The notes under the pieces are model-generated. The model worked only from the letters and a program-made list of their open reading frames with translations, did not search any database and was not told where the DNA came from. Shown here piece by piece: positions 2,624 to 47,786 of a DNA stretch of 64,000 bases (position 1 is its first letter; the number at the start of each line of letters is the position of its first letter). This DNA comes from Antennarius striatus (Eukaryota > Chordata > Actinopteri > Lophiiformes > Antennariidae): positions 5,014,697 through 5,078,696 of the forward strand of contig NC_090789.1 of assembly GCF_040054535.1 (NCBI RefSeq), given 5' to 3'. A program made the position numbers and the translations under genes.

Positions 2624-3050
2624 ATACAGAACCCAAGGTGCATAAAGTGCAAAAGTTGCTTAGACGGGACAAATTATCAGGATGTAAGTTTCAGGCTGGA
2701 AAGGCATGCACTGAGTGAGTGGCATAACCGAGAGGCCGAGATAGTGGTCAGGAACATCTGCACTGCATATGGATAAGGTGCTACAAAATGCCAGTGGGAG
2801 GTGCTATCAAGAGTTGTGAGGGCAACAAAAACTCAGAAGCACCAAGGGCTTAAAGAGCCTTGGAACAGATGTGAAAGGTGGAAAAAAAAGTTTTTTTATC
2901 ATGTCTTTTATAAATGTCTTTTATAAATTCTTTATAAATGTCTTTTATTCTGTGTTGTTAATATATCTTTTTTTTATTTTAGGTGTGCCTTACCAGATAT
3001 TTCCGTCTAACTGATTTCAGGAAGCATATATATTCAATACTACATAAAGA
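2624..3050 (+). other. possible zinc-finger-like exon pair (uncertain)
   Basis: An open stretch encodes CIKCKSC followed by a strong donor (GAT/GTAAGT at about 2692). After a polypyrimidine tract and acceptor near 2981, a second open piece encodes FRKHIYSILHKE and then GAG/GTGGGC. Both splice in phase 0. The Cys pair and the H-x5-H spacing resemble the fingers of the large gene downstream, but the C-to-H spacing does not fit cleanly. It may be an exon pair of a related gene, a decayed duplicate, or chance within repeat DNA. Confidence 0.25.
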
Positions 3051-3089
3051 GGTGGGCATTGAACCTCATGCACATTTTATCCAAAGCTG

Positions 3090-3425
3090 TACTCCACTGG
3101 ACGTTAAAGTTCTTGAAGACTTTCAAAACTCCCAAAAAGAAAGTTTCAGCAGATTGACCCAGGTGATGTGTCTCATGCTAATGATCGTCATTAGCATACA
3201 AAGGTGAAACTCATTTCAGCGACCCCCTTTGACACCACCACCAACAATCATTGAGGAGCCAGACGGGTTTCAACGACAGTCGTTGGAATGTGAATAGCAC
3301 TGATCACACCCCACAGGGTTAATAAGCTGGGACATGATCAGCCACCCTCTGCACTGAACAAGTCTCTTGGATGAGAGACGAAACGTCTTCAAGAACTTTC
3401 TTAACGTCCAGTGGATTGACTTAAA
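3090..3425. repeat. short inverted-repeat element (MITE-like)
   Basis: About 30 bp at 3092-3120 (actccactggacgttaaag...) is the near-perfect reverse complement of 3388-3419 (...aactttcttaacgtccagt). The right arm runs into 'gagagacgaaacgtcttcaa', a motif I recognise from abundant fish interspersed repeats. The interior has no convincing coding potential, so this looks like a non-autonomous element or foldback piece. Confidence 0.6.
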
Positions 3426-4249
3426 CAGCCTTGGATTACCATGACCTGGATAACTGAGAACCTACACAGACCTCATTCACATTTACAATGGTTATTCTGA
3501 GATTTACCTTAAATGGGAAGGAAGTTGTCCCCCAATTCATGCTATTTTTTTCTTTCTAGTTGTGAGTTCTTCAGCTGGTGTTGTCATGGGTGACAGGGTA
3601 TATATCAGGGCTTTGAACCGGTTCATGGAACGAAACTTCTCGTATTTTGGCAGGAACGAAAACGAAACTGAAAACTTTATATTTTTTAATGTTCCGGTAC
3701 AGAATCGGAACAGAAAATAATTGTAAACCGGTTAATACCATTTTTTTTTAATTCTTGAAAAAATTATTTGACCTCATGTTTCACTTCCTTTCATTCACTG
3801 GACGCGTAATGAGAGCGGGGAGAAGTAGCGGCTATCAGCAACAGTTAGGAAAAGGGAGGTCTCCCAGTCAAAATTTAATCACAACAGGTAAACACTAGTA
3901 TGTCAATCTTAAAAATGTACGATTTAGACATTAACTCATTGGCTGCAGTCATTTTCAGAGCAGTGTGTCCCCGCACTATCAGCGCTTTATAGCAATATTG
4001 AGCTATGGAAGAAGCACAATGAAGATGTGTTGTTCAGCAATAAATGACATGGTGGAAGTAATTCTTGCCTTATTTCATGCAGTGTCTAAGTAGGAGGCAT
4101 AAGCCTTAACTACAGTGATATAACTGTCATAAAGCAGTGATGTAGTGTTGTAGTACTGCTTATTGTAGGGTAGGGATATATAGGGATAATTATAGTCTAT
4201 AGTATATAAACTAATTGCTTTAGTTTCCAATTTAAAAGTCCTTAAAATA

Positions 4250-6465: not shown

Positions 6466-9400
6466 AAAGTGAAAGAAATCTTCCAGATTGGTAATATTTA
6501 TATTTGCACATTCTCATTTTTTTCTGTGTTTTAATGAAGTACACATCTATTGCCATTGCATTCTATGTCCTGTTTATTAATCTTTGCATTTTTCTTGCAT
6601 GTTTAGAATTGGCGAATGCTGGTAAGCATACCTCTCTTTCTTGTTTGTATCTTGTCAAAAGTGCCTCCAAAACTATTTGTCTTTAAAATCGGTTGTGTAT
6701 GTGTTAACATTTTTCCAGATAAACGTCCAGCCAACAAAGAGCACTGGGGCTGTTGTAGAATAACCCCTGTGCTAAGATTTTAAAATAATTAACAATGCAA
6801 ATAAGTTGGAAAGTTCTCAACAGGTGCAGGACATATAAAGTCAGAACAGTATCTTAGTTGAAAGTATGTTGAATAAAGAAATGAGAACAGGGAGCATAAG
6901 TACCAGATGGGGGGTCTTTTTTTCCCCTTTTTCTTTTTTTAAAAAGGAAGACCATTTATGTAAAGACACGATCAAACCAAACTACAAAAACCTAATGGAG
7001 GAAAATGACAAAAGGTACAGGGTAAAAGTAATGTGACAGGCCATGGGCAGTTACTTCCTCAGAGCTCTTTGGTAGATAGAGCAGGAAGAGAAAGAGGCCC
7101 ATAGGAAACTACAACAGAACCTTTGGAGTTCCCACGGAGACTCCCATTTTCACAGAATATGATCCTTGCTCTAGTGAAAACCTGCAAAATCAGCAGCATA
7201 TCAAATACTTGTCCTCCCAACTGTACATCTGGAAACACAACATCATAATTTTGTATATCTGTGGTTTAGATTGGGATGGCTCAACTTGAACAGCGCTTTA
7301 ATGTTCTTTTTTTCTACAGGTATGCTTCCCAACATCTCTGTTTTGCATCCACAGCAGAAAGCAAACAAAAAAACCATCATAGGTTAGTAATGCCACTGTA
7401 AATGCCGTGACATGTGTTACTGATTTAAATAATCAGTTTAATGGTGTAATACTAGACCATATGATTAGCAGTTAGATAAAGCAGTCTTGTCTGAAAATTG
7501 ACGAATAGCCTTTTCTGGATTTCGAAAGCCCAAAGTAGGATAAAAGGTTAAAGTGCGAAAAAATTTGTTAGTGGTCTTGTCTTTTTGTCTGCCTCTTTTC
7601 TGATTTCTTTTGCGTGTTTGTTATACTTCAGTAGTTCAGATCATCAAACAAGCTTCTACAAGGAAAAGAGATGAGAATTAACCTTTATTAATGATATTTT
7701 TAAAGGATAAGCTATCCAAACATACCTGGCCCATATGATTACAGTTGGGGTTGCCAAGGGGACATTTAATTTATCACGAGTGACAGACATTTTGAAAAAG
7801 TCAATGTTTTGTTCACTCACTTTGTCTTTTCCCTAAATTAGTTATTTTAATGATCTGAAATATTTGAGTGGGAGAAATAAAAGCAGAAAAAATCCATTGA
7901 AGCCAAACTTTGGATCAGAAATATTCTCCTTATTTCTAATGCTGTTGGTCTTCCATAGACAGAAACGTGATGTTTCTCAAGATCAGCAAGACCATGTTTG
8001 AAGTAATATGTTCATGCTTTCCTCTAGGATTGTCGTTGCTGACTTTCTGTTTTAACCGAGTTACAAACTGCTGCTTCTATTTTTGCCACGTCTGTGAGGA
8101 AAAGTGTGTGTCAGAGATGGTTGTAGACCACCTTACGTCCGATGACCATTACATCAACTATTTTGTGAGTGCTGAATATCAAAAAAAGTAAACAATATTA
8201 CCAAAAAATTATAAGCACAATTTGATTTTAAGTTTGTTTGTTTTTTAATTTTAGAGTTACACTAACCCTGATACACTGAGCTTCCCCTTGATTCCTGGCT
8301 TGCAGCTTGGACAAAGTCTGGAGGAAGAAGTCAAGATGGCTTTCAGCAATGGGCCGGAACAACTACAGGTTTGTGTTGGCACCACTGGAATTATAAGTCT
8401 ACATTCGAAGGTGCCTGGGTTAAAGTGAGCTTGTGATCTTCTGAGATGAAAAGTTTACCTCAGAAGTTTGCGGAAAAATACCCTTTTTTTTGGCTGCGCA
8501 TCAGGGAAATTTTTCCTGTTAAAATGAGTTTTAATTCTCCTAAAGAGTTATGAATTGTGGACACGGTGTGAACAATCACTTTTCTTTAATCCATACCGGT
8601 ATGGAGAGCAGCACGTCAAGAGTGTTGCAGACAAGTATAACAGCATTAATCTTACAGAATCATTCAAACAAATCCCCAGAACATATTTTACAGCAATTAA
8701 TATTGGTTCAGATGTTTATCCCCTGGCTTTGATTGAAATGGACTTTTTAGGGTCAATGAATTGCCCACCGCTATATAAACAGCCCTCTACCTATAAAAAT
8801 GCATTTATAAATACACTTTCAACCCCCATAGGCACATTGTCTCCCAAAACTTATATGCATACTTTTTCTCACAACATGCCCACCAAATAAACATGCTGCA
8901 ATGGGGTGAAGACCTTCTTAGATGACGTGATGATCTGATTTCACCACATATCCTCTTTACAGATGTTGGAGTTACCTGTGCAACTATTGGAAGAACTTAA
9001 AACAAGAAAAAACTCTGAAGGTATAGAATTCCCATATTTATGTGTTTTAGAATAATATGAAACTGAATGTTAATCAGATTTTTTTTTTTTCATTTCTAGT
9101 GATGTCCGCTTTAAATGAAAATGACAAGCTCCAGAAGAAAACCAGAGGTGCGTCAACAATTATTATTTCTGCAGAATGATGAGGGATTTCAAGTAATTTT
9201 TCCAGTTAATATTTTTTGGTATAGTTCCATGTGTGGGTTCTCTCCGAATTCTCCGGCTTCCTTCCATCTCTAAAAATTTGGTTGCTTTCTTAAGACAGGA
9301 CAAAGTGCAAATATTTATTTACCAAATCAAGTCATAAACAGAGCTCGGGAACAAACATCACTGGACCTTTTCATCATCTGCATCCTCAAGTGTTTATAGT

Positions 9401-9776
9401 CTTCAGGACTAAGGTGTGTGTATGTAGACGTGTGTTGTAGCCTTGAACCGATGGAATGTTCTTGGCTAGAGTGGAAGTAGGACGTAAGATGAAAAAAACA
9501 CAACTTTCAGAATAAGTTCATCAATATCTTGCACAATGTTTTGCATAATACAATCACTTGATAAAAATCTTTCCACTACAGAAACATCTAGCTTACGTGT
9601 AGTGAAGGAATATCAGTTTCATTGTCCAGGCCTCTGTAAGTGAAGTTTTTTAAACCCCTTTGACCTTTAGCTGACCTTTACGTTTATTACCCAGGTTTCC
9701 ATAAATAAACACTATCTAGACTTTTTGACAATAAGTTATAGATGAACTCTAGTTGAACTGCCTGCACTGCACTTAT

Positions 9777-9838
<62 letters not shown>

Positions 9839-12800
9839 ATGAACTTTATTCTTTGTATTGTATACCATGACCATATAAGTGTATATGTGGGTGTCGGCTT
9901 ACAAACTGCTGACAGGATGTGCATGATACCTGCTTCAAGGGGAGAATATAAAGGAAGAAGTTGTTACTCTTTTGTGACATGTGGTGCATTGCTGCTGGCT
10001 GTTTCTATCCTCCATCTTTGAGGACACATGTGTCAAACTCGAGGCCCGGGGGTCAAATGTGTCCGCGAGAGCATAAAAGGTCAGAGTGTCTAAAAATAAT
10101 GCAGGTCCTTCTCAAAAAATTTGCATATTGTGATAAAGTTCATTATATTCCATAATTTAATGATCAAAAATTAAACGTTCATATATTTTCGATTCATTGC
10201 ACACCAACTGAAATATTTCAGGTCTTTTATATTGTTTTAATACTGATGATTTTGGCATACAGCTCATGAAAACCCAAAAATCTTATCTCAAAAAATTAGC
10301 ATATCATGAAAAGGTACCTTACATGAGCTATTAACCTGATCATCTGAATCAACGAATTAACTCTAAATACCTGCAAAAGATTCCTGAGGCTTTTAAAAAC
10401 TCCCAGGCTGGTTCATTACTCAAAACTGCAATCATGGGTACGACTGCTGACCTGACTGCTGTCCAGAAGGCCATCGTTGACACCCTCAAGCAAGAGGGTA
10501 AGCCACAGAAAGAAATTTCTGAGCGGATAGCTCAGCGGATGGCTGTAATGTTTGTAACTTAAGTAATAAATTCAGAGTTATTTAACATTAAGGAGTAGTT
10601 ATGTTTATTTTACATTACATTGAGTTACAATTAGTAGGTATATCTGGCTCTTTGAGGACAGCGATGATACTGATGGGGCCCTTTGCAGACACAGCAGCAC
10701 TCCTTTTATGGTTAGTTTTAGTTAAAATGTGTAGGTGCCACTGCACCTCTTCTGTGGTTAAGGGTATGCTGTTATGTTCAGAGACCCTTTGTAGCCATTC
10801 GCCACGTCGCCATAGGCGAAGTCAATCCCAGATTGGCTTTAAGGTTTTTAACACGTGTAGCCACAGTGGCGTTCGTATTTTTAGGGAAAAAAAGGCTAAA
10901 ACTTAGCTGTCGAAGATGAACTTGCGGTGAGGCTCACCGCAAGTTCATCTTCGTCAGCTTTTCTTTGTATGCGATGGGATGAGTTTTCTTGGAACTGTGT
11001 GGACGACGGGTGCCGAGGCACGTCCTCATCTGAGCCTATGTCCTCAGTTGAACCCGCCGCCCTTATACTAATTGATAACATAATTTCTTTCAGTGTTTTA
11101 CAAATCATGAGTCGCCAAGAACATTTTTGCTTCAGGTTACAGTTTCAGATATCTCTGTTAACACCAAGTCAAAAATTTTGTCACCCCCAAATACGATGCA
11201 AAGCTTCAGAGAAGCTACTAATGACCCTTGCTGATGTCTTCCTGTGCCGTGTGTCTGTGTCCTTATCTTTTATTGTTCAGTTATCCTCCGTCACTCCACT
11301 CAATCTGTTCGATTTTTTTTTTTTTGTCTAGCTATCATACCGAAGAGGAAGATGATACAAGCATACCAAAAAGACAGTAGCAGGAAGTATCCACTTCTCG
11401 GTTAGTAATTTTAGCTGAATTAACCAAATTATAATTTAAAGATTTTGATTGATATGTTCAATTTTGGAGTTTTGTAATATTCTTTAAGTACTTAAGTATG
11501 TGAATGTACGTTAAAAAATATGAACTATAGCTGAGACTATTCTGCATCCTATAAAAATTTCACCTCTTGTGTTTGTGGTGTTGCAGGCATGCAGCATGTT
11601 GTTGAATGCATTAGTGTCGGATCGACAGAGAAGCAACACTACCTCTGCACGCTCTGCCAGCTCTCTCTGGGCGTCCACATGATCATCAAACATGTCCTCA
11701 GCTTTGACCACATACATTCTTACTTTGTAAGTACTGATTGTGTGAGCAGCCATTAAAGCTGATTGTCTTCATTTTGATCTCCAGGACGAGTCCTGAATCC
11801 ACAGCAACTAAAATGATGACTGTCTTCCAGTGGTGTAGTTGTCTAATCAAATTACTTTTAATCTACACAGACGGCATACCACCCCTTCACATTACGTGAC
11901 AAGAATTGCTATCAGTGTTGGACAGATTGTCAAGTTGCCATGATACTTGACTTTGCAAAGCAGACAGAAAAGATTTATGCCTCTTCAAACACAGATATGA
12001 AGGTAGTACAGTCTGTGAAGTCATAAACGCATGTTTCACGAATAGCATTTATGTGAACCTGCATACTTTGTTTTGCAGCAAGTTCGCCTGGAGCCGGATG
12101 AATTCAGATCTGTGAATTTTGATTGTTATGCAGAAGGTTGGTTTGTGGTTTTCAACCCTCAGGCTGTGTTTTGTACCTCTGAATGACCGTATCCTAATTT
12201 CAACCTATGGTGGCTTGCAGCTTTGGAGAGACTGGAGTCCATCATGAAGGAGAAAAACGAGGAGAGCAGCTTGATCGCAGACATCAAACCAGGGATCAAG
12301 CTTGGTATGTGTTATTTTACTGTAAATGAGCTAAACTCGCTAATGGGAATTTATTACATCCCGCTTCAAAGCGGTAATGTGTTGTCAGTGTTCGTTCGTT
12401 ACTCCGTCCATCCCTTCGTTTGTCCACCAAATATCTTCTCAACCGTTGTAGATGGAAAGATGAAGCAAAAATCACATTACTCTGGCAGCAAAGGGGAAGA
12501 AATTGAGATGATGACATTGACCTTGAGAAAGCTAGGTTAGGGTCAAATTTAAAAAAATTTAAACTCAGGAACCAGATAAGATAGAAAGACAAGGGACAAG
12601 GCCAGTGTGAGTAAGACCATAGATCAAAGCTAGTGCTTTGATCTATGAAAGTAGGTCAGGGTGAAATTTTAAATTCAGGGTGTCTTGGGATGTTGCAGTC
12701 TGACTGCCTTGAGTTCTGCAGTAGTTTTTTCTTGCAAGAGTGTCAGTTATAATGCAGAGACGACCCTGACTGCAGAGTGAATGGCAAAGAATATTATGAA

Positions 12801-15800
12801 TTTGTCAGTCTTTTGTAGCATCTCGTACAGATGTCTGTGGTTTCATGCAAGAGGGCTGAGATGTAAGTACAAAGGAAACAGGATGTAAGCTCTGGTATTG
12901 GCTTTTGGTGCAAACTTCTGCCCTCAGCCAAATATCGAGGCTTAAAATAGAACGAAAGACAATAGATCACGAAACATCAGATAGAAGACGATAACCACTA
13001 CAGATTCTACATCTCATAAATGCATAATGATAATTGTGGCGTGTGGGTGAACGGTTCTCATTAGATTTCTGAGAGGCCGTGTGTCTTTGGACAAATGGTC
13101 AAGGTATTTGCTTCAGTCTGACCCCATAAAGAAATCCCAGAGTGATCACAAGTTTTTAATTCTTCAGGGAATTAGCAACTGTCAACATCCAGCCAGATAC
13201 AATTTCCTTGAAAAGGTCTTAAATATTCTAAATTATAAAGTATTAAAAATATATATTATTTTTCTAAGTATTACGTTATATTCTAATTTTAAAGAAAGAG
13301 GAAATTGTAATAAGCTAAAATTAGTGCATCCAGCGGAGGCTTTTAATCATTTTAAGACAAAGAATTTGGCTGTTGCTGCTGTTTACAAATCAAATGTATG
13401 TGAGCTGTAGCTTTGACACGTCTGACCCACAAGCTCAAATGGCCTGGTCATTTGAACTCAGAGCAGTCTCAGTTTAACCACGTTTTGTCCAGAGCAACAG
13501 TTGGTCTGAACACACGACAATCTTCTGGAAAGCTGTCGTGTCAGAAAAGAGAATAAAGCTATACACACACGTAAAAAAGCTAAGTTGCATAAATAAGCAG
13601 GGTCGATAACATGCCAATATTTTCCAACAACCTGCAGGTTAGTTTTGAAATGCTAACTCACCGTTACTTTGTTTAATCTTTGTAGAGACGCTCACTGCGC
13701 GGTATGTTTCCTCCAGACCTGGATCATGTCCATACAGCTTATTTTGTCAGGTAATGAATGGTGAAGGTCACATGCACTATTTTGCTTTAAAACTTTAAGC
13801 TTTGTGATGCATTTATTTCACCTTTTTGTCCCTTGTGACAGGACTGCTGTGCATTCTTAAGAAACGTAAATCAGTATTCACAACACGTGTTAAAACACAG
13901 ACACAAATTGGTACCTTTTCATCTTCCTTCAAATATCTAAACAAAATAAATTGACATAATTTATCTATAATATATGATCTAATGTATCATCTGTCCCTAT
14001 TGGTCTTCTTTAGGCACTGGACAAATACTTTTCTAATGGTAACTCCAATTTTCTCTCATTTCTCATGTCCATGTTTAATGAAAGCTCATTTAAATGATTT
14101 TTTTAAAAACCATTTTATTTATTACAGGTCCTGATAGTTACGGCCAAACAGGTACACTGCTCTTAACTGCAATCAAGTCGTAAAATAACCCTACCAAATT
14201 ATTATTAATATAATAAGTTTGTTTATTGATGTATGAATTAAAATGACTCTGTCCCTAAAGGAAGATCCGTGCCGTTTCTTGGTTTATATGACCTCCTCAA
14301 AAAGCAAGAGGAACCTGTTGTTGGTGAGTTGGAGCTTTATTTTAGTGTTTATTGCTAAGTTTTTGTTATTGGGTTAATGTGTTGTTTTGCTTGTTTAGGT
14401 CTGTCCCTGGTTGTCACATTGATCAGCAGTGAAGGTTCTGCGGGACCTTTTTATTTGTGCTTTGCCTGTGAGGAAACTTTCCCTGAATCCGGTGTCAGAC
14501 ATCACTTCAGCTCTCATAAGCATATCATTCAGACATTGGTGAGGGTTTTTTTTAAATTTTTATCGACAACATTACTAGAGGTGTTTGTGCTTTTGTGTGA
14601 CACCGCAGCAGCTCAAACAAAGGCGAGTTCTGTTGGATGCATTGTTTTGGTCTTTAACCCCTTCTTACCTATATCCTTAGCTATACCTGAATCCTTGGCG
14701 ACTCCCGTTTGCGTGGGAGGGCAGTCTGGATGTGAACTTCTTGATGTCAGTTGCATTGAAAGAGGAGGAGGGGAAGAACGGATCAGATGCAAAGATGCTG
14801 AAGGTAAGAATCCAATTCACTTTTTCTGTGCTGATCTTTTCACATCTGAGTAGATGCATACAAAAATTTTCAGCTTGATGGCATATAAATTAAAACTATA
14901 AAAGTTCATACCTAACAAAACCACAGTAATCCTTCATGTATTGTAATTTTCTTGGACCTACATGATTTCATTTTTCAGAATTGGGTTTCTGTCCACTTAA
15001 AAAAATTAATGTTATTATTATTAATGCAGAATTTATCCTTTTTCAGATGTTTGATATGCCACTCTCACTGTTCATCAGCCTTCTCCAAATCTCTTCTAAC
15101 CCTAACCCTTACCAAAAAGGTAGGATTTGGACTCAAAATTAAATTATTCAAAGACACCTGGGGCGATAAAATCACTGCAGTTAAACCTGTTTTGACAGGA
15201 AATTGTTTGACGAAGCACTTATGCTGCAGATAAAGTTTTTCTATGCATCTTTTGGTTTTGCTATGCAACATAAAGATGTCAAAGACTGTTGTTTGTGCAT
15301 AGAGATCGATTGATTAATCTGTAAACCTTTATTACTAATAAAATAAAAGTGGCAGCACTGGTGTGCAAACCTGGTTTCAGATTCCCACTGAAGGACGATG
15401 GATGAATACCATTTTGAAGATTTTTTTATTTGTCTTGGCATTATCTCCTTGAATTCTGTTTATTTCTTTAAAAAAAAAAAAGAGAAGAAAAAAAGCAAAT
15501 ATTTAGGTTTTTTATTCTCTACAGTGATGGCAAGCCTTCAACTCCAACACACTGTTATAAAGCAAAAGGGTTAGTGATTAAAAATTCTTTAAAAATGATT
15601 AATTCCATCCAAGGTACGTCTGTCTTAGTTGGATTTTTGTATCTTCTCACCTGTGCAGTTCCACGGCGAGAAACGTACAGCAAACTGGAGCAAAATGAGA
15701 GATTCCCTCTGCTTGGTGAGTACTGCTGGAAAGCAGAAATGCACTAAGGATCAGGCACGTCCGTGAAAGATCAAGGAAGAGTCCCGTTGAACCCAGAGAT

Positions 15801-18800
15801 GACTGGATGACTTTCTTCTCTTCATCAACGCAGGTCGAGAGTTTATTGTCATGTACAGGGCAGGTATCCATCCAGTTGGATTTCTGTGCTTGCTCTGTGA
15901 GAGGAGGTTGGTCCACACAGAATATAACACCCACTTTTTCAGTCGGGAGCACATTTCAGCATTTCTAGTGAGTATATTCGTCCACTTCCTACTGCAAATG
16001 GGAAAAATTCAAAGATAAACTCGCAGGGAAAAGTCTGAACTGGAATATTTGTGCGTGTAGAATCATTTCCACCCAGGCTCACTGGTTTCAAGCGCTGACA
16101 CAGCGACCATTCTGGACCTGGCCAAGCAGGCCGGACGTTTTCACTCCATCAGATATGCACAGGTATTATGCGAAAGAAAATAATGTTCTTTGGTTTGTGT
16201 TTGGTAATCTATTTTCCCACATTCTAGTGAATTACGTGTACGTGGAGTGATTTTGTTGCCAAAATAAGAAATTAAGGGACAGTCGCCACTTCTGACACTT
16301 TTTAAAAAAAGGATTATGTTTTCTACCTCCGGGTACACAAGTGTTTCGATTGATCTCGAAGGAAGAAACGCCTGCAGATAAAGAATATGACTGTCAATAT
16401 GACTGTCAGCTTTATTCTTTGTTTTCTGCTTTCAAAGGTCATCACCTTAATGAGGCCCATCGTGGAGCCCTACTCCTACCCTACAGGTGGATAGTCGCAC
16501 CGACAGATTATTTAATGGATTCATATTCTGCTTTGGCATCCTAACTATTTCACTGTTTACTCTAGCAACGTTCATCTTGCAGCGTGCAAAATGGAGAAAT
16601 GGAAAGGGATATCTTAAACCCCCAATAAAGCCTAAGATGAAGCTGGGTAAGTCAATCAAGGTATTGGATGTTAGTTTATGGGTGTGTCACCTGGTAAAGG
16701 AAATAAGTGTTTTGTTGCTGAGTGTGGATCAAAAGAAATATGAAATAATACTTCAGGTCACATCAGCAGACCAGACACTTTTCAAAGCTGCGTTCTCAAT
16801 CATTCAAGCTGTTTTTCATGAAATAATGATCAGATAAATTTTATTAAGTTACTTGATTAGATATTGCATCTATTTTTAATTCCCTTGTGTTTCTCAGTGC
16901 CCAGAGAGATTTCAAAATCCACTGATAGGGGCAATGGGACAGACAAGAGTCTGGAAAAGAGCCAGCTGGACAATTCTGAAAAACAGACCAGTCAAAAATC
17001 CACGGACGACAATGGAACGACCATAAAAAATGTCTCTGTCACAGCTGCTGTGGGTATTATCACTACTAGTGCAGAAAGCAGTGGACATGTAAAAATACAA
17101 GCTGATGGGCAGACAACACCAAATGAAAAAGAATCAGAGAGGAGAACAGAGATGTTTCCAGAAAAAAGTTTGGAGGTGATAAAGAGTGCTGACAATGGAA
17201 TTGATCGGGTGATAAAGAAGGAAAAACAAGATCCAAGTGAAGACGACCTACAGTGTCCCCCGACTACAGACGTTGCTGGTGAAGCACACTCTGCTCAAGG
17301 AAGTAATAAAGATAGTCAGAAACAGTGGAAAAACGCAATTTACAAAGGAACTCAAAGATGCAGCCCAATCAACGTCTCTTCTGCAGAAGAACCAAAGAAG
17401 GTGGCGAGCATCAAACCAAAGGAGGAGACTACCAGTGAAGGGGGAGGAAGTGGCGAGACAAGTCGTGGGCCCGCAGAGCATGAAGGTACGGAAATGACAC
17501 TTAAGTTTATGGGAGGGTGTTTTGCCGTTGATTTGAACATGTATCGGTCTGTGTGCATCTTGCAGAAACCAGTAACGTGAACCATGAAGCGGCGACTCTG
17601 TGGCAGTACATCAAGATAAAGATAAAGAACAGAGAACCTGCAATTGGTCAGTTCAAAATATAAATAAGTACATCACTGCTTTTGTCAGAATTTGTTACAA
17701 ATACAACGTAGTAATTATATTTGTAAAAAGCAGTTTTCTTGTGAAAAGAATATTTGGAGCAGGAGAAGAGATTGATGGCGTCATTTTAATTGTGACTTGT
17801 ACTTTCTTTTTAGGTCTGTGTTCACTTCTTGAATGCCATTGTGATCAGCGGGTGATCTACCTCTGTGAATGCTGCCTGCTGATGATCCCAGAGAAGGACA
17901 TTATCGGACATGTCACGGGGGTTGACCACCAGAGGATGTATCTGCAGGTGGGGCAACGTTACTGGACATGCTTGTTGTCTAGGGTGATCCATTTGGCGAG
18001 TGACCAATGCTGGTCCTGTGTTTGTGAATGGATCCATCGGACTTGTCCACTTCAGTTTTTTTTCTTTCTAATGCTGGTCTATGGTTCTTAATCGCTTCAA
18101 TGACTCAGATAGTTCTGTTTAGTCCACATTCAACCAAAAGACAGAGTAAGTTACTGGAGATGTTCAGAAACACACTGGAGGAAGCAATAACTGGTGGTTA
18201 GTGCGCACACGCCAATGCATATGCAGCCTGTTACAATCGCTCTGCTCATTTTTCCATCTTTTTTACTTATTTTACTTACTTATTTTAAAATGTTTTTTCA
18301 CTTTTTAAATTAAAAAATAAGACTTTTTTTTGCCAATTAACTGTCACCAGGTTTATCTTATTTTCATTAAACCAATCACGCAGATACACCGTGTTTTTTA
18401 GCCGTTTTGTGCACGCTGGGAGTTCTTTCACTGTTGCTGTCAGTCAGCGGAGCGCAGCAGCTCCAAGACCGCAGTGTTTCCACCTGGGAACAGCTGATCA
18501 GACTAAAACCGACAGGCATCGTTCCAATTCCAAGGCCTGCTGACATCCCAGCAGAGCTCTTAAGGAAAATGCAGAGATTTCAGGGGAAAAATAAACAATC
18601 GGAGGAGACAACAGACGTGTTTGGAGAGGAGGAAATGCAAGCCATGTGTTGCTAAAGTCATCATGGGCAACGTGAGATTGCTCGCTAATAAACTTAATGA
18701 GCCTACTAGACTTATACGGAGTCAGAGTATCGGGAACGTGTAAAGTGGTTACGCAAGGGCCTCCCGGTATTCAGACTAGGCCTCCTGCTGGTGTAGACGC

Positions 18801-21800
18801 CACCCCCACTGCGGTGTTTGAATATCAAAGCAGAGGAGGTGAGAAGAGAACTGAGACGTCTCGATGGTGTGAAGGCTGTAGAGACGGGGTGAGCCCCAGG
18901 GTGCTATGAAAAAGTCAGTTAATGTGATGAGAGTGTTGTATTCCAGAAAAACCCAAAATAAAAGCACAACAGAGGATGGTTTGCAGCCAAAAATGGGAAA
19001 TCTTTAATTGATTCTCAGCTCATCAATACAGATCAATTGGGAAACAGCCATTGGACTCATCTCTCATGACCCCTTTATAGTCACGGGATCATGTTTGTGT
19101 GTACGTGTGCAGGTGTGCGTGTCTTTTCTTGGGAAAACAGGAAGCGTTGGATTTCCAGTCACCATGACCCCCTTCCTGTCTGTCCAGTTTTATACAATTG
19201 GGTTCTTCGCTGCCAAACCTGAAAATCTGTTTCCTGCTGATTTGAAGTGTAGCCATTCATTATTCCGCTTCCACATTAAAAGCTATTCCCAACTACAGTA
19301 ATCAGTATATCAGTTTAGGTAATGGTGGAAGATGATGGATATTGGAGATTGGATCACATCTGGATGGGGTCCTGGAATCAACCTCAATAATAACAGAGTA
19401 GACCGTTGTTTTACAGGCTGGTGTCCATTGGCTTCAGCTTTTCTTTGTACCTCATTTACTTTCAACTTTAACTACGACAATTTCAGGACATGTAAATCAA
19501 ATGTTTTGAAGTAGTAATATCTTCACTTGTGTGTCTGATCCAACCTTAGGGGTTGCAGAAACTCCCACCAGGGAAGCAGGCGGGGGACATTAGATCTTTG
19601 GCTGCTTTGTTTGAACAAGAACATGGACAAAGAGAGGCACAGGTTTGGTCGAGGTTCTTTTACATGTGGACTTTGTTACAATCATCACTTGACAACTGAA
19701 AGTATTTATACAGAATAACTGAATGAATAATCCAATGACAGATTTAAGTCATGTATGAAACAAGATGCAATGCTTAACATATAGTTTGTCTGTACTCTAG
19801 GTGGTTAATTTGGGTGCAGAAATATACAGCAGCATTTTAAAACAAAACCCTAAATCAGGTAAGTGTCAGAAGTGCTGAGTCCAAAAGTAATTTTTGTGGC
19901 TCTAGGAAGCAGAATGGTTTTTTTTGTCACGAATGTGTGATCTTTTCCTTCACTGTGTCTATTTTCCATCGTCTCTACAGCCATACAGGAGGTGAGAGCA
20001 CTTTTGGCCCAGCAGAGCAGTTTGTTTGAACCCCTTCCATCCTCTGCTGCGTCTGCTGTCCAACCTGTGCACCACTCCATAGTTCTCCACCCCCAGCATG
20101 AGGTTCCGTCCATCACTGATGGCCTACAGGTCAGCAAGTAATTGTTATAGCTACTTCTCTATGTGGAAGATAATTACACTTTTGAACAAATACAGAGAAC
20201 AAACAAAAAATCTTAACCTCCAACCCTGAAACTGAAGATCCTTTTAATCACCAATTAATCTCACACCAGGTCACCATCCTGTGGCTTTAGTGCATCAAAG
20301 ATAATCCCTACTCCTAAACAACTGATTTCTTAATCTCCACATGAAGTGCTTAATAACAATTTTTAATTTCAAAGGTGGAAGACATGGACATCAGTGAGTC
20401 AGAAGACACTGAGGCGCAACCTTTCTCAGTAAATCCAGCATCGACTGTAACCCCCGAAATCCACCTTGAATCAAATGGAGATGTCACAAAGACTGTGATC
20501 AGAGTGTCTGAACCAGCACTCGACTGTAACACCAGCTTGGCTGTTTCCGAGACTAGCGTGGACTCACACACGTCCACCAGCAGGCCAGAAAATGCAACTC
20601 AAACGGATACCGTCTCCAAAGAAATGAAGAAAAAATCAACATCTCAAAATAAACCGATGATAAATTCTGATGAAAGCAGCTCTGCTACGTCTGTGACGCT
20701 CACCTCCCAGCGTCCAGCCATGTCCCACACTTCTACTTCCACCAGATCGGCAGCGACCGCTTCCCCCTGTACCACAACCACTCCCCCTACTTCCACATCA
20801 AACGAAACCTGCAAGGGTATAACACACAACTCCACTGGGACTTCAACCAGCACCACACACTCTGCAACCGACCTTACGTCCAGCACATCCTCCAAAATGG
20901 ACGAGACGCTCAAATGTTCCGACGATACATCTCAAACTATGGTGACGTCGTCTGAATGTGAAAGCACGGCGGTTTCTTCTGAGGCTTTACACGGAAAGAA
21001 TTCAGCTGGGCCGAAGAATAACTCGCCTCATCAGAGGAAGCCTCTTCCTGTGAGGTCTGAGAAGCAGAATCCATCGGTAGGGCCGTCATGTAGGGTCCCA
21101 AGTAAGACCAAGCCGAGTAGGAGCCTTCCCAAACTGGGTAGGTGTTTATCATTATTATTATTTTACATTTTAATATTTGGTCATTCAGGAAGTTTTGATG
21201 AAATTCTGTGCTTTCAATCCAGTCCGTCTTTCATTTACAGGCTTAAACTATCTGATACAAGTGATATACGACAAAAAGAGGCAGATCTACTGCCAGCTGT
21301 GCTCCATCAGGTTGGCTCAATCTGGGAGATCTCACCTTCACACCTTTGATCACAACCGTAACTACGTGGTGCGTATGTGAGGAATCACGCAGGAGCCTTC
21401 CAAATGGAGCAGGTTGTCTATCCAGGTATTAACTGCGTGTTCTTGTGTTCAAAAGACAAAGATGTGCCCTGGGTGGAGCGGGACGCGGTCGCAGATGGAG
21501 AAGTTTGAGAAGACGGTGGCCCATTTGGCCGAGCTTGAGAAAGACGTGGGAGTCAAGAAAATCCAGGTGACACGACGAAATGTCCCACAGTTCAGTCTGT
21601 GTGGTTTTTAATCTGCTGCAGAGATTAATAACCACACGCAAAGTGATTTATAGTCTTCAATCCATGTACATGTTGTCTTTCTGTGTGCAATCACTACTGG
21701 TCCAGATGAGAATTGGGTATGAGACTATCCATCCATCCATTTATCTGCTGCTCCTTATCCAGGGTCGGGGGAGAAGGGGTGTTCGGGTCAACTCCCATAG

Positions 21801-24800
21801 ACCCTCGAGCACCTGATGGAGGTTATAGAGCTAATCCAATGTTCCACAATCGGGAATTAATAGTCCAAGGTTGGACTCGGTCATATGCTCTCTCCACTAC
21901 CCTGGAATAGACTTTCCTTGGGAGGCTGAAGAATGTGATCACCTATTAATGGCTTTTTACATTTTCATTTACATTGGGTTTACATTGTCTTTCATCTTGT
22001 TAGACATTGCAGGTGAAGGAGGACGTCTACAGTGAGCTGGGTAATCTTCCACAAAGCGAAGGTAAGTTGGAAAAATGTTTCAACATCTATGTTACAGTTA
22101 TCGTCCATATAATCTGTCCAATTTAGTATTCGTTGGAATTAAAGTGCAATTGGATAAATAATTAAAGTAACAAACATTTTGCTTGTTTTATTTCTTTTCA
22201 CCACAGTGTATTCTTTTATATATAAAACATGTTGTCACTGTCTTACTTTTCTGACATTTTATCCCCAGCACTTGAAAGACTGAAGGAAATGCTGAATCCA
22301 TTGTGTCGTCCATCATCTACGACTGAACCTGCAGAGTATACCCCCATCAGCTCGTGTGAAGCCTCAAGTCCAGATGGTAGGAAAGTCCTGGGTCGGCTTA
22401 AAGCATGAAGTTTGAAATTAAACATACTTAACTTGCAAATACAGTCCAGTTCCGACTTTTAGCGTCGATCTCCTCGGTGTTTTTTCTTTTGTGAAAAAAA
22501 TTACTGAATTTCCTACCGCAAACAGACTAAGAAAAGAGAATAAATCTAGGTAAACACAATTTTAATCTCTGTTCAAGTGCTGGATCTGCTTTTGTTTGGT
22601 TAGTATTTTCTCATTTGTCATCACTCCTCCACCGTTCTCTAATTACAACTGGCAAATTAACAAATTTTACAGATCTTCCCGTCTCGGACTCCGAGGTCAC
22701 CGGCAGACACGCCCGAGCCTCTGACACTCGCCAAGAGGCTGCTAAAATGAGACGTCACTCGGAGTCGCAGGTCTCAAAAACGGCGCTTGAAAGCTCCCAG
22801 AAAGCACTCCCCGATTCCTTCAAGTGGGACACGCTCCCATCTGCTGCTTCAAGGAATACAGAACCACAGAATCAATCAAGACCCAACCAGAAAGCAGCAC
22901 ATGAACCAGCATCACCGACCTTCCTAGGAACTCGAATGGGTAGGTTCGTGTGCATCTTAGCCGTTAGTGAGGTTTTTTATGAGTTTATAGACTGTAAATT
23001 TTTTATTTTGTCACAGGAAAAAGAAGTCAGGGCCCAAGTCGTTTGTCCGTATTCTTGCGTGTGCAGGGACTGGAGAGTCAGCCAGTCATAGGTGGGTATC
23101 CACTTCCTTTTCACACTATTTCACAAAAAGCATTCAGGGTTTAAGAAGGCGGTTTCCCCATCAGGTCTAGGCTCTGTGTGGGAGTGTCAAGGGATAGAAC
23201 TGGACTCGTTCTACTTGTGCGAGAGCTGTAAAATCACAACCACCATCAAGTCCGTCCACGGACACATGACCAGCTTGCAGCATCGGTACAATTTTTTGGT
23301 GAGTATCATCTCAATGATACACTGAAAAACCTTTAAGTGACGACAGTTAATTTCATAGTTTCTCTGACATGACGTGTCTTTCAGCTGACGAAGCCCCCGG
23401 AATTCCTTCGATTTTTGAAGGAGGACCTGCTGCCGTGCATGAAGATGGATATTTTTCAAGATGTTGTCAAAATGGTGTCAAAGCAAGAGCTTTCCAACAA
23501 CAGTGATGCTCAGGTAACCTTTTAGGTCCAGGTATCGTGTGTGTGTGTGTGTGTTTTACGTAAAATATCGTTTGGTTAAGTCTCTGAAAATTACGAGAGA
23601 GAATTTATCGAAACATTTGTCTTGTTTTTGTTAGATTGCATCATTTATAGTGGCTGAAATTGAAGCCAATTTGAAATGCATTTATTCTGCTAATTGTTCC
23701 CCTGCTTGTATTTGTCTTGAATCGAAGGTTATACTGCTGAGGCAGGACTGGCATGAACATGTTCGAACAGCGACGTTCAGTGAAGGTAGATGTCACCTCA
23801 TTCATTCATGGTCTTCAGTTTTTACGATGCACCAGAGGATCCAGTGTCAAACTGTGCCGTTTGCTTTCAGCCTTGAAAATCGTCAAAAATATCGACGGAG
23901 AAGAAAATCAGGACGTCTCTTTTGCATCTTTCAGCGCTGTTCAACCAAACGGTGAGTCCCGTTCTCATTCTTATTGATTCTTATTGTCAGCTTTACTGAC
24001 GATGGTGGAATACAAGCATGAGCCTGTGGTTTTGGTTTTGTGATGCGCAGACCAGCGACCTGAGGAGAATCTAGAGGAAACTCTGATCACAGAGAAGCAG
24101 TCGACACCTGAGGCAAACCAGAGAGGTCACAGCGGTATGACTTCATTTTTTTTGGAGTGGATCGTGCTACATTTAAAAAAATGCTAAAAATTCACATAAA
24201 AAACGCAACTTTCCTTTTTCTTTCTCTTTGCTTCACTGTTTTAGAAGCAACACAAAAAGCAGAAAAGCCCAGTCTAGAAGAGACTATGGTGACAGGAGAT
24301 GTGAATGAGGACAAACAAAGCGGCCTGACATCAACAGCTGATTCTGTTGTCGCTCCGCTTCCTGTTACTGACTCACATCACAGTCCACAAGAGAACTCTG
24401 GGAACGTTTCTATGAAACCGCAGACGAGTCCACCGGCCTGTCGGCACCAGAGCCCGATCTCCGAGCTGCAACCGGAACAGGGTCATTCCGAATCGCCGAC
24501 CTCGTCTGTGTGTCGCGGAGATGAAAGTCCTCCGAACAGGAAGCGAGCAGCTGCTTCACCTCCAGAGTCGCTGGTCAGCCCCAACGCCGCCGACCCCCAG
24601 GTTAACGATCCGCCAGCAGCCAAACGCAGATGCACCTCGCCACAGCCCATCAGTCAGTTCAGCACGGCGTCCACGTCTCAGTCGAAGTCCGTTTGCCATG
24701 CTGCGACCTCTACCTCTCCGCCCCCCAAGACAGAGGAAGAAGTAGTAGCAGTCAAATCTGAAGAACTTGACGCGAGCTATTTGGACTGGGAGCGGTGTGA

Positions 24801-25773
24801 AAGCCTCAAGGCTCTGCTGCGGCAGGTGAAGTCAGAGAGAAACATGTCTGCCGGCACGCCGTGTCCAGATAATGCCAACACCCCCCACGGCGAAGGTCGA
24901 TCTGAAACTGCTTTGGAACGACGATGGGATTCCAAGGGAGTGCAGACCACATGTTCAATGATAACCAATGACGAGCCAGCAGGGGTGGATTCAAAGCCTC
25001 CTGTGATGAACGCTGCAGTGGAACACGTTGCACCTTCCAAACCAGCCCCTGCTCATGTCGTGAAGACGGAGGAGACCGAAGCCGTCAGCGCCGACTTTAC
25101 TGGACGGCTCCAACCCAGTCCGGCTGAGACTAAAAACGCTGCAAGCGATCTGTTGCCCATCAGTCCCATCATAACACCCAGACCCGACCCCGGGAAGTAT
25201 CACGTCAAGTGGACGTATCACGAAGCGAACAAAGTAAATCCCAACAACGCCGTTGCGGCTTCAGGAAGTTACGGTTCATACAGCCAAGTGTCTTGTCCCA
25301 CAAACGGACAGACGCAGGTGTATTTCCCTCCTGAGTCTGTTGGTTTGTACAGAACAACAGACAACTCCTACGTTTACACCGGGAACCCGTACCAACTTCA
25401 AGCACCGAGTTCAGGGACTTTCTACCCAAGTCAGAGTTACCTACCGCAGGAAGCAAGCTGCATCGTACAACTTCAAACGCCACCAGGATATTTTGGTCTG
25501 GGAGCGCAGCAGCAGTACTACGCCTCCAACCAGGCTCTCTATTTGGGTCGCATTCCATTCAGCGTCCCAACTCAAAGGTTCCCCCTGAACAACTACAGGA
25601 TCAATACCAACGCTCTGACGCAGAGCTGCAACATCGGACAGGCAGACACTGACATGAGGGTCCAGCCCAACCCCCCAGGCTTACTACCGGTATCCTACAT
25701 CCAGAGTGGAATCGCATCCCACAATCCCGTGCAATCTCCTTGGGAAAGCGTGAAGTCCAGCCACCTGCAGTGA
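6466..25773 (+). CDS. large multi-zinc-finger protein (eight U1/matrin-like fingers), unnamed
   Basis: I assembled about 46 exons with GT-AG boundaries, and the frame stays open across every junction, giving roughly 2,200 residues (stop TGA 25771-25773). Each of eight exons encodes one finger with C-x2-C-x10-12-H-x5-H spacing, the type found in U1C/matrin and dsRNA-binding zinc fingers. Typical cores are YLCTLCQLSLG with HVLSFDH, and FYLCESCKITTT with HMTSLQH. A companion exon, often with an N-P or P-rich start, follows seven of them. Long Ser/Thr/Glu-rich exons (16898-17485, 20375-21137, 22673-22939) look disordered. The last exon (24245-25773) has V-K-S/T-E motifs that fit sumoylation sites and ends in a Tyr/Gln/Pro-rich tract. 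Leading exons 6466-6490 and 6607-6621 are tentative, 7320-7382 is better, and no initiator exon was identified, so the 5' end is open. A nuclear RNA- or DNA-binding role is inference. I do not recognise a named orthologue. Confidence 0.85.
7320..9635 (+). repeat. zinc-finger gene, coding unit 1
   Basis: Exons are 7320-7382 (lead-in), 8028-8164 (finger 1: FCHVCEEKCVS then HLTSDDH), 8255-8368 (companion, starts SYTNPDTL), 8963-9020, 9100-9147 and 9582-9635. The finger exon enters in phase 1 and leaves in phase 0, and the cassette as a whole is phase 1 to phase 1. Confidence 0.8.
9778..9838. repeat. (CA)n microsatellite
   Basis: About 29 uninterrupted CA dinucleotides lie inside an intron of the zinc-finger gene, between the exons ending at 9635 and starting at 11332. 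Confidence 0.97.
10028..10062. repeat. fragment of a hAT-type interspersed repeat
   Basis: The string 'tgtcaaactcgaggcccggg' followed by 'ggtcaaatgtg' is a well-known terminal motif of vertebrate hAT elements. Only one end is present, immediately beside the Tc1/mariner-like piece. Confidence 0.5.
10102..10546 (+). mobile_element. Tc1/mariner-like element, left end and truncated transposase start
   Basis: The sequence starts CAGGTCCTTCTCAAAAAAT and includes a second copy of the 'tctcaaaaaattagcatat' motif near 10287. An ATG at 10434 opens MGTTADLTAVQKAIVDTLKQ followed by KPQKEISERIAQR. This is the first helix-turn-helix of a fish Tc1-like transposase, which then loses homology, so the copy is truncated. 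The two same-direction motifs about 175 bp apart look like an IR/DR-type terminus. It lies in an intron of the zinc-finger gene. Confidence 0.8.
10905..10959. repeat. near-perfect foldback palindrome
   Basis: Positions 10912-10931 (gaagatgaacttgcggtgag) are followed by a single G and then the exact reverse complement at 10933-10952. Pairing continues outward to 10905/10959 with one mismatch, giving arms of 27 nt around a 1-nt centre. It sits in an intron and is not part of a terminator or tRNA. Confidence 0.9.
11332..12304 (+). repeat. zinc-finger gene, coding unit 2
   Basis: Exons are 11332-11400 (linker, ends KYPLL), 11587-11726 (finger 2: YLCTLCQLSLG then HVLSFDH), 11871-12002 (companion, with an extra CYQCWTDC cluster), 12079-12136 and 12221-12304. 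Phases repeat the pattern of unit 1. Confidence 0.88.
12305..13685 (+). other. intron of the zinc-finger gene, no further feature recognised
   Basis: This 1.4-kb intron separates exon 12221-12304 from exon 13686-13750. It is AT-rich, has several unrelated short open frames, and holds no transposon end or structured repeat that I could identify. Confidence 0.6.
13686..14323 (+). repeat. zinc-finger gene, coding unit 3 (divergent)
   Basis: Exons are 13686-13750 (ends SLFCQ), 13842-13910 (DCCAFLRN then HVLKHRH), 14014-14038, 14128-14151 and 14261-14323. The finger is split between two exons so that its Cys pair straddles the junction, unlike the other units. Two exons are only 25 and 24 nt long. 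The companion domain is missing. Confidence 0.78.
14399..15715 (+). repeat. zinc-finger gene, coding unit 4
   Basis: Exons are 14399-14538 (finger 4: YLCFACEETFPES then HFSSHKH), 14681-14803 (companion LYLNPWRLPFAWEG), 15047-15119, 15525-15569 and 15659-15715. Exon 15525-15569 begins VMAS, echoing VMSA at the start of the corresponding exon in unit 1 (9100-9147). Confidence 0.88.
15834..17646 (+). repeat. zinc-finger gene, coding unit 5 with long disordered insert
   Basis: Exons are 15834-15967 (finger 5: FLCLLCERRLVH then HFFSREH), 16061-16162 (companion NHFHPGSLVSS), 16438-16486, 16566-16646, 16898-17485 (196-residue Lys/Glu/Ser/Thr-rich exon) and 17566-17646. The long exon has the composition of an intrinsically disordered linker. 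Confidence 0.87.
18407..18720 (+). mobile_element. non-LTR retrotransposon (LINE) fragment
   Basis: An open frame at 18407-18655 contains IPRPADIPAELLRKM, and the following sequence at about 18667-18711 reads GNVRLLANKLNEPTRLIRS in another frame. The latter resembles the start of the endonuclease domain of fish LINEs (consensus type N-V-R-S-L-x-N-K). The stop and frame change show that the copy is dead. Clade assignment is not possible by eye. Confidence 0.55.
18721..19549 (+). other. intron sequence, no further feature recognised
   Basis: This is the rest of the 1.6-kb intron between exons 17814-17947 and 19550-19642 of the zinc-finger gene. It probably includes more decayed retroelement sequence next to the LINE fragment, but I see no motif that proves it. 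Confidence 0.5.
21241..23091 (+). repeat. zinc-finger gene, coding unit 7
   Basis: Exons are 21241-21368 (finger 7: IYCQLCSIRLAQ then HLHTFDH), 21456-21566 (companion TKMCPGWSG), 22004-22061, 22269-22376, 22673-22939 (89-residue disordered exon) and 23017-23091. Confidence 0.87.
21725..21945 (-). repeat. LINE 3'-end fragment, antisense
   Basis: The stretch 'tccatccatccatttatctg' followed by 'ccttatccagggtcggg', and ending near 'tagactttccttgggaggct', matches the 3'-end tail of abundant fish non-LTR elements. It is inserted in an intron of the zinc-finger gene. Confidence 0.65.
23165..25773 (+). repeat. zinc-finger gene, coding unit 8 and C-terminal exon
   Basis: Exons are 23165-23298 (finger 8: FYLCESCKITTT then HMTSLQH), 23385-23513 (companion LTKPPEFLRFL), 23728-23785, 23871-23951, 24051-24134 and 24245-25773. 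The last exon supplies 509 residues: a Pro/Ser/Glu-rich half with V-K-S/T-E motifs, then a Tyr/Gln/Ser/Pro-rich half (for example SGSYGSYSQ). Confidence 0.88.

Positions 25774-39639: not shown

Positions 39640-47786
<8,147 letters not shown>

Follow-up and report, generated by a model that had tools for sequence, protein, structure and literature searches.

A 64,000-nucleotide (nt) stretch of the Antennarius striatus genome (hereafter the window; contig NC_090789.1, positions 5,014,697 to 5,078,696) carries a gene, here called gene A, whose model encodes a protein with seven zinc fingers. We consider it probable (about 0.7) that gene A is a real multi-exon gene in which one phase-symmetric module is repeated, and that it belongs, as a diverged member, to a family with no fewer than four genes (A to D) in this genome. 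The module would open with a linker exon, which usually ends in P-x-h-G, and continue with a finger exon of U1/matrin-like type, a companion exon that is probably helical and a short exon; it was counted seven times in gene A, twice in gene B and once each in genes C and D. The gene A model was read from the DNA of this one genome alone, by combining an unguided gene prediction (25 exons) with a reading of the DNA into 39 exons that were checked for AG/GT splice sites and phase. Its coding exons total 6,398 nt, or 2,131 residues plus a stop, and the only stop in the model translation is the terminal one. This size is close to the roughly 2,200 residues proposed by an earlier inspection of the letters, the sequence-only reading.

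Each of the seven units of gene A contains the same three exons in the same order: a finger exon entered in phase 1 and left in phase 0 (1-0), followed by a companion exon (0-0) and then a short exon (0-1). The finger exons of units 1 to 7 measure 137, 140, 140, 134, 134, 128 and 134 nt and are all 1-0, and the companion exons span 93-132 nt and are all 0-0. The short exon is 58 nt long in units 1, 2, 5, 6 and 7, 73 nt in unit 3 and 49 nt in unit 4. The sequence-only reading had proposed finger exons of about 128-140 nt in phase 1-0, a 0-0 companion followed by a 0-1 exon, and a phase-symmetric unit, and all of this is reproduced in the model. It had also set unit 3 apart from the one-exon finger layout, but the unit 3 finger lies in a 140-nt 1-0 exon like the others. 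The 1-1 linkers that it placed after the short exon follow in six of the seven units, while in unit 5 the next exon (U5.A) is 1-0 and precedes a 763-nt 0-1 exon. The exon ahead of the finger exon ends in P-x-h-G in six units, and in unit 1 the P is replaced by T. Because the module runs from phase 1 to phase 1, in-frame internal duplication is allowed, and the modules may have multiplied in this way. As a control for the short exons, open stretches of 30-109 nt running 0-to-1 were sought in the inner part of each of the seven introns, with lenient splice cut-offs that were fixed after the exons were known. Nine were found; every intron had one as long as the exon chosen there, and six of the nine were 58 nt long, two of them in the unit 6 intron.

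The fingers themselves were located by a six-frame regular-expression (regex) search of the window, which places seven on the plus strand within gene A (at 8084, 11646, 14458, 15887, 17864, 21291 and 23218). All seven have the spacing C-x2-C-x10-11-H-x5-H, in agreement with the C-x2-C-x10-12-H-x5-H described before, and all retain the four zinc ligands; C-x2-C-xn-H-x5-H is likewise found in the four fingers of genes B, C and D. When each finger was left out in turn and a profile of the remaining ones was run against 4,083 six-frame segments (94 kilobases, kb), every held-out finger was recovered at E-values (E) between 4.2e-8 and 4e-3 (2.8e-6, 4.2e-8, 3.8e-6, 4e-3, 7.7e-6, 9.4e-4 and 1.3e-6 for units 1 to 7), indicating that the gene A fingers are not chance matches. 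The earlier count of eight fingers has to be lowered to seven, since neither the plus-strand regex nor the finger profiles yielded an eighth and the next-best plus-strand matches of the seven-finger profile had E of 0.2 or worse. Three other plus-strand regex matches were rejected as fingers: a CA repeat at 9759, an H-x4-H match at 19925 that is intronic in the model, and an H-x3-H match at 20683 that is off-frame within the exon at 20375-21137. That exon is partly open in a second frame, which carries the chance finger-like motif. A degraded finger suspected by eye at ~2985-3053 has no profile match listed there and is followed by what looks like the inverted repeat of a mobile element.

The other members of the family lie outside the window. 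The seven-finger profile detected two minus-strand fingers upstream of it (E 3.5e-12 and 2.1e-9), which belong to gene B, and gene A unit 1, used as a whole-genome query, reaches the second of these at E 0.09. Gene B contains two finger, two companion and two 58-nt short exons in the same phases as gene A, together with a plausible first exon. Gene D appeared as a weak match to unit 2 (E 0.6) and scored E 9e-10 with a nine-finger profile among eight loci; it has a linker, a 140-nt finger exon, a 126-nt companion, a 46-nt short exon, a 1-to-1 exon and then a Gly/Arg-rich exon. Gene C matched the gene D query at E 4.5 and a ten-finger profile at 5e-10 among two loci, and it has a linker, a 140-nt finger exon, a 120-nt companion and a single 46-nt candidate for the short exon. 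Searched across 114 kb, a profile of the four B, C and D fingers alone recovered every one of the seven fingers of gene A, at E 2.8e-9 to 9.4e-3, and its next match stood at 0.43. The order of finger (1-0), companion (0-0) and short exon (0-1) is found in the seven units of gene A, the two of gene B and the one of gene D, and gene C has the finger and the companion. Sequence comparison thus makes finger homology across the four genes firm, while companion homology is weaker, its support coming chiefly from position, phase and a modest degree of similarity.

Further members may exist in this genome, because matches between the known members reach only E 0.09-4.5; units 4, 5 and 6 were not among the genome queries that yielded results. 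Ten distant tblastn loci (L011, L019, L025, L027, L028, L036, L042, L047, L048 and L049) were dropped as chance, none having a finger-profile match below E 0.5. One of them, L019, includes a companion-like stretch, with no phase-0 splice site by eye and no finger in the surrounding 30 kb. Gene B is transcribed away from gene A, and the last of its exons probably lies around C14:4999100-5000000, where a basic stretch and Tyr-rich parts were seen by eye. The gene C module is followed downstream by an open stretch of 320 residues, many of them charged, with no Pfam match. The gene adjoining gene D looks like TEX10.

As to type, the gene A finger is best read as U1/matrin-like on the strength of weak matches in sequence and fold; those favouring this type are TUT1/4/7, SF3A2, ZMAT2 and JAZ. 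A nine-finger profile touches two of the eight zf-met loci scanned, L007 (2.6e-4) and L004 (0.0033). No clear family emerged from Pfam-A for the gene A units: at E up to 10, four families were listed for the seven units, with a best E of 0.015 and AKAP95 at 0.41, and zf-met (PF12874) was absent from them. The sequence-only reading recognised no named family with this architecture; the architecture itself recurs in three or more further genes of this genome. That gene A is an ordinary vertebrate gene which already has a name we hold to be a serious but minority reading. With at least four family genes in this genome, databases are likely to contain orthologues from other fish, probably as uncharacterised proteins; on the other side stand the lack of a clear Pfam family and the literature, where the titles and abstract openings examined, covering part of the matches, name no such gene family. 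Gene C presumably resembles zebrafish si:ch211-13c6.2. That gene appears in an egg-quality gene table, and the module is not mentioned in the passages available from that paper (PMC6631549).

Several observations weigh against a repeated-module family with U1/matrin-like fingers. A six-frame search with a B/C/D companion profile found none of the companion exons of gene A, which score only 3.5 to -1.3 bits against it and are equalled by shuffled sequences in 2, 5, 10, 56, 71, 76 and 123 of 500 cases; likewise, the companions of gene B were not among the matches listed for a companion profile made solely from gene A. In a tree of eleven units, one of eight inner branches was starred and the branches were very long. 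A finger-only nine-unit profile ranks ZFHX4 (E 0.028) and ZNF423 (0.073) above U1-type proteins. For the predicted finger folds, which were computed from finger exons alone without the companion, Foldseek returned no match at E <=0.001 (best 0.33), archaeal ribosomal and Kaiso chains were also among its top matches, and the structure-comparison Z scores were all under 8. Within the model, some exons were positioned with the module pattern already in mind, splice scores are poor at the U4.C acceptor (-1.8), U6.L (-1.7) and U3.lk (-1.5), and the unguided predictor overlooked the fingers of units 1, 2, 4 and 7 and offered exons that were dropped from the model. We regard the exon phases of the model as established, together with finger homology as judged from sequence. 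The fold of strands followed by kinked helices that marks U1/matrin fingers is here a prediction backed by weak matches. The tree lacks resolution, so we claim neither an order of duplications nor a recent or fish-specific expansion; the fish expansion suggested before, for which a unit tree had been the intended check, is not supported by units this diverged.

The function of the array was considered from the residues that contact RNA in known fingers of this spacing. One study, which states this spacing rule, assigns the C-x2-C-xn-H-x5-H finger of TUT4 to the U1C type and calls it a homologue of the third zinc finger of JAZ (JAZ ZF3); JAZ ZF3 binds double-stranded RNA (dsRNA) with basic residues of its helices, and the same is proposed for TUT4 (PMC6488673). 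A cryo-EM report describes basic residues of the TUT4 finger contacting pre-let-7 (PMC11402785). Lys or Arg occurs within the x5 between the two His in two of seven gene A fingers and neither of the two gene B fingers, as against both fingers of genes C and D and all eight zf-met comparison fingers, and helix charge averages 0 in gene A versus +3.25 in the comparison set. These eight come from 11 regex matches in zf-met loci, three having been dropped as simple repeats or chance, and as the top zf-met matches they are canonical by selection. The gene C finger also retains a basic G-x-K-H pattern. By this sequence proxy, most gene A fingers lack JAZ/TUT4-like basic helix residues, whereas genes C and D seem suited to RNA binding by the JAZ ZF3 standard. 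That the gene A modules are dsRNA binders like JAZ/ZNF346 or the TUT4/7 finger is accordingly weakened relative to the sequence-only reading and seems unlikely to us: the U1-type spacing, the predicted fold, the presence of TUT4, TUT7 and JAZ among the weak matches and the basic RNA contacts of JAZ ZF3 and TUT4 speak for it, and the residue counts and helix charge just given speak against it.

Under the repeated-module reading, the gene A protein may be a multivalent scaffold in RNA or ribonucleoprotein (RNP) metabolism, to which we give an even chance. It would be nuclear because of the basic patches in its terminal exon. Since most gene A fingers are without basic residues, the array more likely grips proteins, or few of its fingers touch RNA. 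A role chiefly in protein contacts is somewhat less probable than the scaffold, and DNA or chromatin binding takes what remains. The single-module genes C and D keep the basic finger residues of RNA-binding relatives, which most gene A fingers would have lost; some of the latter possibly still touch RNA and others may hold proteins. A less probable reading is a change of use: seven copies would have arisen in frame from one ancestral U1-type module that bound RNA, of the kind seen in genes C and D, and most of them would have dropped their RNA-contact residues, giving a multivalent protein-binding array in a nuclear RNP. If the repeated-module reading holds, it would define a finger-plus-companion module, without a clear Pfam model, that four or more genes of one fish genome share. 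The exon-phase layout would explain how the module can multiply without breaking the frame, and the series from one to seven modules would be a natural set for studying how an RNA-type finger changes its job after duplication.

The 5' end of gene A is tentative in the model. Between window positions 3500 and 7320, the sole well-scoring 1-1 exon is one of 15 nt (6607-6621), and none of six possible start exons is outstanding, so that a start at 6466 is not pinned down. The codon-usage table and splice-site weights were approximate vertebrate values, and the scores are comparable only in relative terms. More than 40 in-frame junctions had been taken as an argument for function; the model has 38, all in frame, and the argument is weak because the exons were picked to stay in frame. 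That gene A is a decaying pseudogene or a poorly expressed relic of the family is improbable, for although some weak splice sites, the loosely defined 5' end, transposon-like sequence seen by eye upstream and in introns, and the strong divergence between units would fit such a relic, the zinc ligands are complete in all seven fingers, the 39 exons (admittedly chosen open) have no internal stop, and the 508-residue terminal exon has a strong coding score. A Pfam search of the 763-nt exon (254 residues) gave no match, and PADLOC gave 0 families for the terminal exon.

Among known systems, the U1/matrin fingers (zf-met; ZNF346/JAZ, ZMAT2, SF3A2) are one of the closest, and the gene A unit differs by an upstream P-x-h-G-L and a downstream companion exon, by the loss of most basic helix residues and by the absence of zf-met from the Pfam families listed for the units. 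Kruppel-type tandem C2H2 genes also carry many fingers per protein from repeated units, in their case 28-residue repeats within one exon, while gene A has one finger per exon, H-x5-H spacing and modules that extend over several exons. The N-terminal C2H2 finger of TUT4/TUT7 and the TUT1 finger are close as well. In TUT4 a single finger is joined to nucleotidyltransferase domains (PMC6488673), a kind of domain that did not come up in those gene A exons that were searched against Pfam. Piccolo in teleosts is reportedly a case of a zinc-finger domain amplified within one fish gene (PMC3484663); it is a different gene from gene A, and the likeness concerns the amplification.

Table 1 Modelled exons of gene A, related genes and neighbouring genes (window positions unless a contig is given; phases in brackets).
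Feature	Position	Strand	Basis or remark
Gene A as modelled	7320..25773	+	39 exons; ends on AG/GT sites, phase, open frame
Linker exon (1-1) ahead of unit 1, ending ..TIIG	7320..7382	+	model, translation
Unit 1 finger exon (1-0)	8028..8164	+	regex, model, leave-one-out profile
Unit 1 companion exon (0-0)	8255..8368	+	predictor, model
Unit 1 short exon, 58 nt (0-1)	8963..9020	+	model, intron control
Unit 2 finger exon (1-0)	11587..11726	+	regex, model, leave-one-out profile
Unit 2 companion exon (0-0)	11871..12002	+	model
Unit 2 short exon, 58 nt (0-1)	12079..12136	+	model, intron control
Unit 3 finger exon (1-0)	14399..14538	+	regex, predictor, model, leave-one-out profile
Unit 3 companion exon (0-0)	14681..14803	+	predictor, model, companion profile test
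Unit 3 short exon, 73 nt (0-1)	15047..15119	+	predictor, model, intron control
Unit 4 finger exon (1-0)	15834..15967	+	regex, model, leave-one-out profile
Unit 4 companion exon (0-0)	16061..16162	+	model, companion profile test
Unit 4 short exon, 49 nt (0-1)	16438..16486	+	predictor, model, intron control
Linker exon (1-1), 588 nt	16898..17485	+	charged-residue- and Ser/Thr-rich
Unit 5 finger exon (1-0)	17814..17947	+	regex, predictor, model, leave-one-out profile
Unit 5 companion exon (0-0)	19550..19642	+	model, companion profile test
Unit 5 short exon, 58 nt (0-1)	19801..19858	+	predictor, model, intron control
Linker exon (0-1), 763 nt, 254 residues	20375..21137	+	Ser/Thr-rich
Unit 6 finger exon (1-0)	21241..21368	+	regex, predictor, model, leave-one-out profile
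Unit 6 companion exon (0-0)	21456..21566	+	predictor, model
Unit 6 short exon, 58 nt (0-1)	22004..22061	+	predictor, model, intron control
Unit 7 finger exon (1-0)	23165..23298	+	regex, model, leave-one-out profile
Unit 7 companion exon (0-0)	23385..23513	+	model
Unit 7 short exon, 58 nt (0-1)	23728..23785	+	model, intron control
Terminal exon, 508 residues + stop	24245..25773	+	basic patches NRKR, AAKRR; Tyr-rich end
Gene B (L013)	C14:5001048-5003229	-	exons placed; 11.5-13.6 kb upstream of window
Gene C (L037, L038)	C14:4976224-4976734	-	38 kb upstream of window
Gene D (L030)	C9:14807167-14808741		other contig; one module
FKBP-type isomerase with EF hand	28-33 kb	-	downstream of gene A
CRTAP	34-37 kb	+	E 4.4e-58 to cartilage-associated protein
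Sushi/Link gene	~39.6-47 kb	-
Leucine-rich repeat (LRR) gene	60-64 kb

Two stretches around the gene A exons resemble mobile elements. Window 3098-3420, upstream of gene A, is inverted-repeat-like by eye, and between the exons of units 1 and 2 an intronic open stretch at 10335-10559 had no Pfam match but looks like a piece of a Tc1-type transposase. Downstream, a long minus-strand open stretch at 39643-41634 encodes an extreme Asp/His-rich repeat and is probably part of the Sushi/Link gene. We take the Sushi/Link gene to be SUSD5-like and the LRR gene to be FBXL2-like. The order CRTAP-SUSD5-FBXL2 is also that of human 3p22, which suggests that this is a vertebrate locus.
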